Below, piece by piece: positions 1,934-39,626 of a DNA stretch of 50,212 nt. The notes under the pieces were generated by a model. That model was not told where the DNA came from. It did not search any database and saw nothing but the letters and a program-made list of their open reading frames with translations. Each line of letters begins with the position of its first letter. Within the stretch, counting starts at the first letter, position 1. Where the stretch lies: the NCBI GenBank assembly GCA_030625575.1, contig DAOUQP010000003.1, positions 1-50,212 on the forward strand, written 5' to 3'. Made by a program: the position numbers and the translations under genes. This stretch comes from Eubacteriales bacterium (GTDB lineage Bacteria > Bacillota > Clostridia > Peptostreptococcales > Acidaminobacteraceae).

Positions 1934-1982
1934 TTTGACATTTTTAAATAAAAGTTATAAAATAATAAAAATTACATTTTAG

Positions 1983-2325
1983 CGATGATGGGAATAAGTA
2001 CTGTGTAAACTGCTTAAAGAGAGGAAAAGCCGTGGCTGTAAGCTTTTTCAAGTAAGTAATAGAGGAAAACTAATCCCTAAGCTCTGGTTTAGTAGCATAA
2101 GCGAAATATCAGCGATTGAAGTCTCGTTACGGCTTTGTGAGTGGCTATTTATCCGATGATTAAGAATTCTATAATGATTAAACAAGAATTCAACAGTCCC
2201 TGGATAACGATTTCTAACCATCAGAAAGGTTATATTTCATTCTGATGATAAGAACTCTGTTTATAGCAACTAAGGTGGAACCGCGTTAACTCGTCCTTTA
2301 ATATTATTAAGGATGGGTTTTTTTA
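1983..2325 (+). ncRNA. T-box riboswitch leader of thrS (carries an inserted repeat at 2148-2264)
   Basis: AGAGAGG and stem-I-like sequence, T-box AAGGTGGAACCGCG at 2272-2285, terminator TCCTTTAATATTATTAAGGA...TTTTTTT directly before thrS. Confidence 0.9.
2148..2264 (-). repeat. Structured repeat element, type I (reverse-complement copy of the 39.07-39.2 kb unit) inside the T-box leader
   Basis: Reverse complement reads ATAAACAGAGTTCTTATCATCAGAA...TCTGATGGTTAGAAATCGTTATCCAGGGACTG...GAATTCTTAATCATCGGATAAA, near-identical in blocks to 39074-39207. Confidence 0.9.
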
Positions 2326-2348
2326 TTTTTTAAAGGAGGATGAAAGGT

Positions 2349-4262
2349 ATGATTAAAGTAACATTAAAAGATGGCTCTGTAAGAGAATACGAAAAAGGGA
2401 TTTCATTATTTGAAATTGCAAAATCTATTAGTGGTCGTTTGGCAAAAGAAGCTATTGTTGGAGAAGTGAATGGAGAAGAAGTCGACTTGTCTTATAAGCT
2501 CGATGAAGACGCAGAAGTAGGCATATTTACATTTAATGACGAAGAAGGAAAACATGCTTTTAGACATACAAGTTCTCATATATTGGCACAAGCTGTACTT
2601 AGATTGTTTCCAGGAACAAAACTTGCGATAGGTCCTCCGATTAAGGATGGATTTTACTATGATTTTGATTCAGAACATGTATTTACTCCTGAAGATATGG
2701 AAAAAATAGAAGTTGAAATGAAAAAAATCATAAAAGAAAAATTAGTGCTTGAGAGATTTGAATTACCAAAGGATGAAGCTATAAAATTTATGGAAGAAAA
2801 AGAAGAGTCATATAAGGTTCAATTGATAAATGAACTTCCTGAAGGAGAGATTATTTCTTTTTATAAACAAGGAGAATTTGTTGATTTATGTGCCGGTGTG
2901 CATGCTTCTGACACTTCTAAAATAAAGGCTATAAAATTATTGAATTTAGCAGGCGCGTATTGGAAAGGTGACGTCAAGAATAAGATGCTTCAAAGAATTT
3001 ATGGAACATCATTTTCAAAGGCATCATTGCTTGAAGAATATATTGTAAGATTAGAGGAAGCTAAAAAAAGAGACCATAGAAAACTCGGTAAAGAGTTAGA
3101 ACTATTTGCTCTATTAGAGGAAGGTCCTGGTTTTCCATTCTTTTTACCTAAAGGAACAATACTTAAAAATCAATTATTAGAATATTGGAGAGAAATTCAT
3201 ACTAGAGAAGAATATGTTGAAATTGAAACACCGATAATTCTCAACAGAAAACTTTGGGAAACTTCAGGTCACTGGTATCATTACAAAGAGAATATGTATT
3301 CTTTGAAAATCGATGATGAAGATTATGCTATTAAGCCGATGAATTGCCCAGGTGGAATGCTGGTTTACAATCAGAGTATAAAATCATACAGAGACCTACC
3401 GATAAGAATGGGCGAAATAGGTCGTGTCCATAGACATGAATTATCAGGGGCTTTACATGGATTGATGAGAGTAAGAGCATTTACTCAAGATGACGCACAT
3501 ATCTTTATGCTTCCTGAGCAGATAAAAGATGAAATCATGGGTGTAACTAGATTGTTTGACGAAGTTTATTCAACATTTGGATTTGAATATTTCGTAGAGT
3601 TATCGACTAAACCTGAAAAATCTATGGGTTCTAAGGAAGAATGGGATCATGCAGAGGCATCATTAGCTGCAGCATTAGATGAAATGGAAATTCCTTATAA
3701 AATCAATGAAGGGGATGGAGCTTTCTATGGCCCTAAAATCGACTTTCATTTAAGAGATGCCATTGGACGTTCTTGGCAATGTGGAACTATTCAACTAGAT
3801 ATGCAATTACCTCAAAGATTTGAACTATCTTACATTGGAAAAGATGGCGAAAAGCATAGACCGATAGTTATTCATAGAGTGGTTTATGGATCAATAGAAA
3901 GATTTATCGGTATTTTGATAGAACATTTTGCTGGAAAATTCCCACTTTGGGTTGCTCCTGAGCAAGTCAAGATTATCCCGGTTGCTGATAGACATGCTGA
4001 TTTTGCAAAGACAATTAAAAAACAGCTTTATGATGCAGGTTTACGTGTAGGAGTAGATGAAAGAAGCGAAAAAGTAGGTTACAAGATAAGAGAAGCTCAA
4101 CTTCAAAAGGTACCGTATATGTTGGTAGTTGGAGATAAAGAGATTGAATCAGGAGATATTTCTGTAAGAAGTCGTGATAAAGGCGAAATTGGTGTTCAAT
4201 CTATTGAGTCGTTTATTGAAGATCTTCATAAAGAGATTAAAGATAAAACTTTTGATTTATAA
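2349..4262 (+). CDS. thrS: Threonyl-tRNA synthetase
   Basis: TGS domain, HTSSHILAQAV, MNCPGGM, HRHELSGALHGLMRVRAFTQDDAHIF; SD AAAGGAGG with ATG at 2349. Confidence 0.97.
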   Translation: MIKVTLKDGSVREYEKGISLFEIAKSISGRLAKEAIVGEVNGEEVDLSYKLDEDAEVGIFTFNDEEGKHAFRHTSSHILAQAVLRLFPGTKLAIGPPIKDGFYYDFDSEHVFTPEDMEKIEVEMKKIIKEKLVLERFELPKDEAIKFMEEKEESYKVQLINELPEGEIISFYKQGEFVDLCAGVHASDTSKIKAIKLLNLAGAYWKGDVKNKMLQRIYGTSFSKASLLEEYIVRLEEAKKRDHRKLGKELELFALLEEGPGFPFFLPKGTILKNQLLEYWREIHTREEYVEIETPIILNRKLWETSGHWYHYKENMYSLKIDDEDYAIKPMNCPGGMLVYNQSIKSYRDLPIRMGEIGRVHRHELSGALHGLMRVRAFTQDDAHIFMLPEQIKDEIMGVTRLFDEVYSTFGFEYFVELSTKPEKSMGSKEEWDHAEASLAAALDEMEIPYKINEGDGAFYGPKIDFHLRDAIGRSWQCGTIQLDMQLPQRFELSYIGKDGEKHRPIVIHRVVYGSIERFIGILIEHFAGKFPLWVAPEQVKIIPVADRHADFAKTIKKQLYDAGLRVGVDERSEKVGYKIREAQLQKVPYMLVVGDKEIESGDISVRSRDKGEIGVQSIESFIEDLHKEIKDKTFDL

Positions 4263-21337: not shown

Positions 21338-21504
21338 CATAATACGTTTTTTATATTGCTTTTTCATATTTAAGTATACTTTTTTGACAATAGCCACCTT
21401 TAGATTCATATTTCTATAGAATGTTATTAAAAATGAATCATAAAAATTTGGAATCAATTAAACAAATAATTGTTATACATAGAATAATGTGTTATAATTT
21501 TAGC

Positions 21505-21735
21505 GAAATACGATGATAGAGAAAAGTAGCATTATAAGTATTTTAGAGAGAAAAACCTCGGCTGAAAGTTTTTCATAGGAATGATGTGAAGTTCGCTCTG
21601 GAGTAGTCTTCTTGAAATAATAGTAGAGAAGGACGGTTGTGCCGTTATAACTTTCAAGTGGTTTTTTAACAATTTGGGTGGTACCGCGGAGAATGTCTTC
21701 GTCCCTTTTATAGGGATGAAGGCTATTTTTATATA
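21505..21735 (+). ncRNA. T-box riboswitch leader of pheST
   Basis: GATGTGAAGTTCGCTCTGGAGTAG (candidate TTC/Phe specifier), T-box GGGTGGTACCGCGG at 21677-21690, terminator CTTCGTCCCTTTTATAGGGATGAAG. Confidence 0.92.
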
Positions 21736-37990: not shown

Positions 37991-39091
37991 ATGATAATAA
38001 GTTTAGATTTTTTAGGTGAGAAATTAGATCAAATTGCTTTTTTTGAGTTAATGAAAGACATTGAATTAGGAAATAGAATTACTCTTGATAAAAACATTCC
38101 ATTACCATTAGTTGTAGAAGCTGTAAAAGATAAAATATATGATTCTGACCCTAGTTTTTCTCAAACAGAACTAATTGATGGAATCATATTTTTATTGGGG
38201 TTAGATTCTAAATTTAAGCATAAAGATTATTACACAGAGTTGTTATTAAAAATAGATGATAATATTTTAGGGATATCAGCAGATAATATACTTAAGAATA
38301 TAACGCCTGTTAATCAAATTGATTCACTTATAAAGATAGTAGGGCTATTTAATTTAGGTTTTGAATCTGAAGAGCTTTTGGTTAATATCGGAAGATTAAG
38401 CCTTGATATTTACAGAGAGAATAGTATTGAAGATTTTAATGATCTGGGTAGAAGAATTTTTGAACATTTATTAAAGAAGGAATCGACGAGTCCTCTTCCA
38501 GAATACTATTTAGGGTATTACTATTACAATAAGGGGATATATTCAAAAGCTAAATATCTATGGGAAATCAGTATCGATAAAGAGCTAGATGAACAACTAA
38601 GAATTGAGCTTGCTGAGATTTTTCCAAAATTACAATCGAGAATGATTTATGAAGATGGTTATGAATTGATTTTAAAAGGAAGATATGATGAAGGATTAGA
38701 AAAATTGCTCTTTATCAAAGATGAATTCTCTGAGTGGTGGAATGTGTTCTTTTTTATTGGTCTAGGATACAGGTTTAAAGAAGAATATCAAAGTGCGATT
38801 CATTATTTGAATCGTGCACTTGAACTAAGTGAAGAAAATGTAGATATTATGAATGAATTAGGAATCTGTTTTACCATGACTTCTGAGTATGAAAAGGCAA
38901 GTGAAATTTATAGAAAAGCGATAGTTTTAGATCCGACTAATCATGAATTGATCTGTAATATGGGAATTATCTACTTCAATAAAGGAGAATTGGATTTAGC
39001 TAGAAAGTTCTTTAATCAGGCACATGATTTAAATCCTGAAGATGAAATAACTAAGCAGTGGATGGAACATATAGATAAACAGAGTTCTTAG
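37991..39091 (+). CDS. TPR-repeat protein; last codons and stop lie in a type I repeat
   Basis: TPR-like YQSAIHYLNRALELSEENVDIMNELGICFTMTSEYEKASEIYRKAIVLDPTN; C-terminal DKQSS* is encoded by GATAAACAGAGTTCTTAG, identical to 39202-39219. Confidence 0.85.
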   Translation: MIISLDFLGEKLDQIAFFELMKDIELGNRITLDKNIPLPLVVEAVKDKIYDSDPSFSQTELIDGIIFLLGLDSKFKHKDYYTELLLKIDDNILGISADNILKNITPVNQIDSLIKIVGLFNLGFESEELLVNIGRLSLDIYRENSIEDFNDLGRRIFEHLLKKESTSPLPEYYLGYYYYNKGIYSKAKYLWEISIDKELDEQLRIELAEIFPKLQSRMIYEDGYELILKGRYDEGLEKLLFIKDEFSEWWNVFFFIGLGYRFKEEYQSAIHYLNRALELSEENVDIMNELGICFTMTSEYEKASEIYRKAIVLDPTNHELICNMGIIYFNKGELDLARKFFNQAHDLNPEDEITKQWMEHIDKQSS

Positions 39092-39227
39092 CATCAGAAA
39101 AAAACATTAGTAGATCTGATGGTTAGAAATCGTTATCCAGGGGCTGTAGAATTCTTGTTTTAATTATATAGAGCTAAAAGTCATAGAATTCTTAGTCATC
39201 GGATAAACAGAGTTCTTAGCATCAGAA
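39074..39227 (+). repeat. Type I structured repeat unit with direct-repeat ends
   Basis: GATAAACAGAGTTCTTAGCATCAGAA at 39074-39099 repeated exactly at 39202-39227; same unit as inverted copy at 2148-2264. Confidence 0.9.
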
Positions 39228-39238
39228 TGACCTTTAAC

Positions 39239-39308
39239 GTAAGAGGCACGGTTTTGACAACGAAATTCTTATATCCATAGGAAAATTTCTGTCAAAGTCG
39301 TGTCTTAC
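39239..39308 (+). repeat. Long inverted repeat (type II hairpin 1)
   Basis: GTAAGAGGCACGGTTTTGACAACGAAATTC ... AAATTTCTGTCAAAGTCGTGTCTTAC. Confidence 0.8.
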
Positions 39309-39387
39309 CTACTACCAAATCAAGCAGTTTCGATAACAAAATTAGTCAGTTCCGTTAGCCAAATCGGAGATTTTGACTACATGACAT

Positions 39388-39425
39388 TTGACCTGCTGCG
39401 GAATTATAAATTCCTGCTAGGTCAA
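39388..39425 (+). repeat. Inverted repeat (type II hairpin 2)
   Basis: TTGACCTGCTGCGGAATTATAAATTCCTGCTAGGTCAA. Confidence 0.85.
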
Positions 39426-39447
39426 GAAAATTTCTATCTCATTGCAT

Positions 39448-39509
39448 TTGACTTACAACGGAATCAAAGATTCCTGTTAAGTCATAAAGATTCCTGTTAA
39501 GTCATAAAG
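39448..39509 (+). repeat. Inverted repeat (type II hairpin 3) followed by exact 20-bp tandem duplication
   Basis: TTGACTTACAACGGAATCAAAGATTCCTGTTAAGTCA; ATTCCTGTTAAGTCATAAAG at 39470-39489 and 39490-39509. Confidence 0.85.
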
Positions 39510-39532
39510 ATTTTAGTTAGATCAAGATTGTA

Positions 39533-39626
39533 ATCCAGGGGCTCTAGAATTCTCATCTCTGTCATGTAAAGGGTTATAGTCATAGAATTCTTAGTCATTG
39601 GATAAACAGAGTTCATAGCATCAGAA
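39533..39626 (+). repeat. Partial type I repeat unit
   Basis: ATCCAGGGGCTCTAGAATTCT ... TCATAGAATTCTTAGTCATTGGATAAACAGAGTTCATAGCATCAGAA; the last 47 bp match 39181-39227 with 2 mismatches. Confidence 0.9.

Follow-up and report, generated by a model that had tools for sequence, protein, structure and literature searches.

In the stretch of DNA analysed here (the window, 50,212 nucleotides), the leader of thrS, a gene for a threonine-tRNA ligase, is a T-box riboswitch. A mobile repeat of about 110-140 bp, non-autonomous and specific for TTTAT, has very probably inserted into the TTTAT of its stem III loop, and has done so in a way that would be near-neutral for sensing. The mobility of the repeat was inferred from empty sites in related genomes. 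The window is one contig (C166) of a draft genome of 2.29 Mb in 215 contigs, estimated to be 73.6% complete, and the coordinates of the features are given in Table 1.

A preliminary description had proposed that a segment of this leader was the reverse complement of a unit located near 39 kb in the same window. When the window was compared with itself by blastn, positions 2145-2264 (+) matched positions 39075-39210 (-) with 78% identity over 136 columns (E ~2e-26), in agreement with that proposal. The long identical blocks it had pointed to, the 27-mer CTGATGGTTAGAAATCGTTATCCAGGG and the block AACAGAGTTCTTA, were both found exactly in the thrS leader and in the 39-kb unit, and a 25-mer of the repeat had four matches in the window and none in 100 dinucleotide shuffles; taken together, these results ruled out a chance similarity between the leader segment and the 39-kb unit. 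The boundaries were then refined, giving an element that occupies positions 2148-2264 with both TTTAT ends included, and a net insertion of 112 bp.

The thrS leader of G001, the only other genome of the genus among the relatives retrieved, did not contain the segment. Its empty site was GTGAGTGGCTATTTATAGCAAC (wider context GTGAGTGGCTATTTATAGCAACTAAGG), and its flanks matched those of the leader in the window with 96% identity on one side and 91% on the other. The site in the window consists of GGCTATTTAT, 107 bp and TTTATAGC, showing that the TTTAT present once in G001 is present twice here. The thrS leader of the outgroup G003 was likewise empty, with a single TTTAT. Stem III reads GGCCAU-UU-AUGGC in G003 and GGCUAU-UU-AUAGC in G001, and this compensatory pair change confirmed the apex of stem III as the point of interruption. 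As judged from these sequences, the insertion is recent and took place after this lineage had split from that of G001. An empty site in close relatives was what the preliminary description had suggested looking for, and the outcome that it considered adverse, the presence of the same segment in all relatives, is excluded for the two closest leaders.

Table 1. Position of the thrS leader, the inserted element and its 39-kb copies in the window
Feature	Position	Strand	Basis
Promoter-like site TTGACA-17-TAAAAT for the leader	1935..1963	+	Consensus scan, 11/12 matches; sequence match alone, function not implied
thrS T-box leader (RF00230), stem III interrupted	1976..2301	+	cmscan E 1.8e-19, 86.4 bits
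Putative specifier codon ACU (Thr), within GAA-A-ACU-A	2069..2071	+	Analogy with the T-box at 21504 (GAA-G-UUC-G)
RRRxG motif GAGUG	2139-2143	+	Sequence; motif as in PMC7583486
Stem III 5' strand GCUAU	2144-2148	+	Sequence
Left TTTAT, target site and left element boundary	2148..2152	+	Single TTTAT in the G001 and G003 empty sites
Element hairpin A (AUCCG ... UGGAU)	2151..2205	+	Folding; covariation across 42 copies
Net insertion of 112 bp (107 bp element and second TTTAT)	2153..2264	+	G001 comparison; cmsearch 112.2 bits for 2148-2264
Element hairpin B (UUCU..CAUCAG ... CUGAUG..AGAA)	2208..2257	+	Folding; covariation
Right TTTAT, duplicated boundary	2260..2264	+	G001 comparison
Stem III 3' strand AUAGC	2263-2267	+	Sequence; pairing probability 0.79-0.98 in the filled leader
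Conserved AA after stem III	2268-2269	+	Sequence
T-box core AAGGUGGAACCGCG	2272..2285	+	cmscan alignment
Terminator hairpin and U run	2290..2326	+	Folding
thrS	2340..4262	+	Pfam TGS, tRNA_SAD, tRNA-synt_2b, HGTP_anticodon
Full element copy	39075..39207	-	cmsearch 118.6 bits
Second tandem copy, one TTTAT in common with the first	39203..39606	-	Partial model match 39484-39606; hairpin B with ~270 bp of other hairpin repeats

The filled thrS leader scored 86.4 bits against RF00230, below the gathering score of 93 bits, whereas its empty orthologue in G001 scored 98.7 bits and was above it. The reduced score is due to the presence of the insert, and for this reason the thrS T-box is missed by a scan at gathering level, which does detect the T-box at 21504. 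The membership of the thrS leader in RF00230 is not in doubt in spite of this score. The second T-box of the window (21504-21709, 139.4 bits) is uninterrupted and has a UUC (Phe) specifier. The core parts of the thrS T-box were all found intact, that is, a specifier matching the gene, the RRRxG-stem III-AA arrangement, the T-box core and the terminator, and both the cmscan alignment and folding upheld the earlier statement that the core and the terminator had been preserved. The gene itself probably starts at its second ATG (2349), where the alignment with G001 begins.

The position of the insert is precisely the apical loop of stem III. This stem is flanked by 5'-RRRxG and AA-3' and is part of the discriminator that senses tRNA aminoacylation, and its stem and loop are themselves variable among T-boxes (PMC7583486, a review of T-box structure). 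The earlier view that the insert had been tolerated in a variable stem or linker was therefore right as to the stem and wrong as to the linker. The leader resembles T-boxes with an extended stem III in that its core parts are all present and variability of this stem and loop is known (PMC7583486); unlike a native extension, the one in thrS consists of a mobile element, and the corresponding site of a relative is empty.

Copies of the element from this genome and its relatives were aligned in the orientation TTTATCCGAT...TTTAT. The element was found to consist of two hairpins side by side, whose small internal loops are conserved. Across 42 diverse copies, 83.6% of the pairs were standard, 28 of the 40 pairs had changed on both sides, and double-changed cells amounted to 166, whereas shuffles gave 62 and slid controls no more than 49, values to be read with the bias of an alignment that had been fitted to a model of nearly this structure. 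In G027, G028 and G038, the replacement of the AGAAUUCU stem by other complementary sequences was visible by eye.

The TTTAT ends were conserved at 97-100% per position on both sides in the 63 copies of G013 (a complete genome of the same family) that were taken with their flanks, and the flanks beyond them were not conserved. Among 36 diverse full-length copies, TTTAT was present within one mismatch at the left end in 32 and at the right end in 33. No inverted repeat was found across the element, and hence no terminal ones; nor did the left and right ends of the 63 copies of G013 show complementarity beyond a few bases. Internal-deletion derivatives retaining both TTTAT ends were found in G013 (C1:353485-353540, 959214-959269 (56 bp) and 2081035-2081063 (29 bp)). 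There were also longer variants, in which hairpin B was enlarged by further short hairpin repeats (GACAACGAAATTC..., TTTGACTTACAACGGAATC...GATTCCTGTTAAGTCA), at 39203-39606 of the window and in L203 (G000:C123, ~28.9 kb) and L022 (G000:C27, ~9.2 kb); these repeats are possibly a second, nested repeat family.

A genome-wide search with the unit, as had been proposed earlier, gave 12 copies in the draft genome (about 10-14 when counted as confident copies), and these copies, together with the empty sites of G001 and G003, bore out the idea of a structured, dispersed or mobile repeat within the thrS T-box. G013 had at least 82 copies by cmsearch and 90 according to the left-end pattern. The 63 copies taken with their flanks had a mean identity of 93%, and 62 out of 62 were located outside ORFs. 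Tandem copies with one TTTAT in common were found both in G013 (675721-675858 and 675854-675991) and in the array of the window that begins at 39075, an arrangement that would arise when the end of an older copy serves as the target of a new one. The copy at 39075 overlaps the end of an ORF for a TPR protein (37991-39091), to which it gives the last residues (...HIDKQSS) and the stop.

A covariance model of the element (R2, E up to 1e-5) had matches in 22 of the 292 genomes of the class and in 32 of the 399 genomes of the phylum (~8% of the sampled Bacillota), the copy numbers of many of these genomes being lower bounds, and an exact 22-base end was present in records named CSMAG_142, Anaerovorax odorimutans BM5_bin.11 and Clostridia bacterium Soudan_22. 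This is a real family, both wide and structured. When the window and about 60 copy-bearing loci were scanned with Rfam 15, no family matched the element itself, and long fragments of the consensus were found in no paper by literature search, short ones being found in apparently unrelated papers. A phage or plasmid origin was rejected, because the 39-kb copy matched no phage or plasmid and variants of the consensus gave only short partial matches to plasmids, none of them of the B. cereus group, and none to phages.

The nearest described repeat is bcr1 (B. cereus group, group A bcr elements), to which the element is likened by its described features. The bcr1 repeats are flanked by TTTAT, and a mechanism resembling site-specific recombination has been suggested for them (PMC6542083); they have a conserved structure, modelled at 167 bp (PMC2267715), and are often located in UTRs (PMC3446304). 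Like bcr1, the element is short, non-coding, chromosomal, structured, flanked by TTTAT, present in many copies, mostly intergenic and endowed with features of mobile elements (PMC6542083, PMC2267715, PMC3446304). The likeness in secondary structure lies in the presence of a conserved structure in each. These shared flanks, structure and locations would fit a clostridial branch of bcr1 that moves by the same mechanism, possibly site-specific recombination. However, bcr1 has been described as specific to the B. cereus group, whereas the element was found in clostridia and other Bacillota, and its consensus variants matched no plasmid of that group; we regard such a branch as quite possible while leaning somewhat against it. 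Given that description and a comparison with bcr1 made on grounds other than sequence, the element was classified as being of the same kind as bcr1 and not as bcr1. It also resembles classical MITEs (RUP, BOX) in being short, non-coding and dispersed and in duplicating its target, but it is not one of them, since it has no terminal inverted repeats and its boundaries are a fixed TTTAT.

The conversion of one TTTAT into two is compatible with duplication of 5 bp at a fixed sequence, with single-strand movement of the Y1 type and with site-specific recombination. A refinement of the main explanation, and not an opponent of it, would be that the element is a PATE- or REP-like derivative mobilised by a Y1 HUH transposase (IS200/IS605 TnpA or RAYT-like). 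This enzyme would bind the hairpins of the element, move it in single-stranded form and place it 3' of TTTAT. The two hairpins between fixed pentanucleotides, with no terminal inverted repeats, are consistent with this, and TTTAT has been reported as the insertion site of group A IStrons (PMC4227781) and as the flank of solo-tnpB elements (PMC10640517). Y1_Tnp was present in the seven element-bearing genomes first tested (7/7) and in 20 of the 22 element-positive genomes of the class, against 155 of the 270 element-negative ones (Fisher p = 0.001, with genome size as a confounder). On the other hand, two element-positive genomes had no Y1_Tnp (one of them only 61% complete), none of the 19 Y1_Tnp loci examined had an element within 1.5 kb, the wider loci L171-L175 had none either, and the copies of G013 showed no replication-strand bias (45:37, p = 0.44). 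Among the lone ends of G013 there was no longer element with the same ends, and the search there for a parent or autonomous element yielded only decayed copies. Movement by a Y1 enzyme is accordingly a tentative proposal, which we judge rather unlikely.

As in the PATEs of IS200/IS605, there is a hairpin at each end, insertion at a fixed pentanucleotide and no terminal inverted repeat. In contrast to them, no parent IS sharing the ends of the element was found among the lone ends of G013, no transposase lay near the copies and there was no replication-strand bias; in addition, the element carries TTTAT at both ends, whereas PATEs have a distinct right-end cleavage sequence. With REP/RAYT systems it shares extragenic palindromes and the presence of RAYT-like Y1 proteins in the genomes, but it is much longer than a REP, has two hairpins and no GTAG/CGTC end tag that we could see, and its copies do not flank RAYT-like genes. 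A RAYT adjoining the element was rejected on the basis of the 19 Y1 loci (within 1.5 kb) and of L171-L175. Among the Y1 homologues, those of G000:C39 and G001 and one from G013 have lost the HUH motif, and one G013 protein, encoded near C1:2976913, retains it together with the Tyr. L142 (G000:C39), L137 (G001:C6) and L143 (G013:C1:2636058) encode a conserved Y1_Tnp-like protein of ~250 aa, present as a single copy, in which the motif has been lost; it is possibly a domesticated RAYT. In L005 (G000:C107), a HEARO (IscB omega) RNA at 48-269 begins 13 bases from a copy of the element, whose end falls where the IscB guide would be read. An IscB/HEARO transposon was rejected as the driver, because HEARO abuts one G000 copy but does not occur in G013, where there are at least 82 copies.

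Several copies of G013 were located, as in thrS, in the loop of a terminator-like hairpin (L130:8788, L156, L151, L181, L121 and L114:6200). With a hairpin score of at least 20, such targets accounted for 6 of 60 copies, compared with 2.4% of the control TTTAT sites in non-coding DNA (Fisher p = 0.007), a cut-off that was picked after the data had been seen; a rank test on the whole distribution gave p = 0.06. A strong preference for hairpin loops was consequently discarded, since only a tail exceeded the controls, and the modest excess is explained as well by tolerance (selection) as by target preference. No other riboswitch was interrupted by a copy in the approximately 60 loci scanned. In L006 (G000:C191) a copy lies 29 bp from a Moco riboswitch, and in L161 (G013) another lies 113 nt upstream of a SAM riboswitch, both riboswitches being uninterrupted.

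According to the mechanism that we propose, the non-autonomous repeat of ~110-140 bp would have inserted into the TTTAT forming the apical loop of thrS stem III after the split from G001, through an enzyme acting in trans that may recognise the folded hairpins and join the ends at TTTAT. Once transcribed as part of the leader, the element would fold on its own as two hairpins on top of stem III, producing a three-way junction, while the base of stem III, the purine motifs, the antiterminator and the terminator would stay unchanged. Otherwise the leader would only be lengthened, and the decision point reached slightly later. In the thermodynamic model, the predicted structure outside the insert was identical with and without it, the terminator fold included; the four lower pairs of stem III had probabilities of 0.94-0.98 in the filled leader versus 0.77-0.97 in the empty one, and the folding of the insert with stem III gave z = -3.2. 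When the whole thrS leader was folded without tRNA, the minimum differed from the canonical T-box fold, so that the argument for neutrality rests on the isolated domain. With the predicted fold of the switch unchanged, the insertion is most likely near-neutral for the sensing of tRNA-Thr; the altered sensing that the preliminary description considered is not what folding predicts.

Alternatively, the insert could alter the behaviour of the T-box and have been retained for this effect, for instance if a slowed polymerase or a locked stem III led to more readthrough. Its location inside the discriminator that senses aminoacylation (PMC7583486), the 112 nt added before the terminator and the slight stabilisation of the top pair of stem III in the model are compatible with this, but the unchanged fold outside the insert, the lack of a gene or orientation pattern among copies elsewhere and the absence of interrupted riboswitches from the other ~60 loci make it quite improbable. 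That the segment is a native part of stem III lost in the relatives is extremely improbable, for although stem III loops differ in length in other relatives (L044), two losses would be needed, each leaving a perfect single-TTTAT loop. Moreover, many unrelated loci carry copies with the same ends, as do other orders and classes, and the empty sites of G001 and G003 weigh strongly against a native T-box stem.

The insertion of a mobile repeat in thrS is a clear empty-site case of a structured element located in the sensing domain of a riboswitch, at the one point where the fold can absorb it, and the filled and empty leaders form a natural pair for probing the tolerance of T-boxes to the extension of stem III. 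A broader conjecture, which we put forward as unlikely, is that there is a phylum-wide and undescribed class of TTTAT-bounded, two-hairpin mobile elements, with bcr1 as one branch, recognised by their fold and mobilised in trans by Y1 (RAYT-like) enzymes resident in the genome, and that these elements would sometimes land in hairpin loops, including riboswitch arms, and extend regulatory RNAs without breaking them. Because the family is wide, structurally conserved and without an Rfam match, a model of it would aid the annotation of many Bacillota genomes, and it would make testable what moves repeats of the bcr1 type. The element is thus of a known kind, in an unusual and instructive location.
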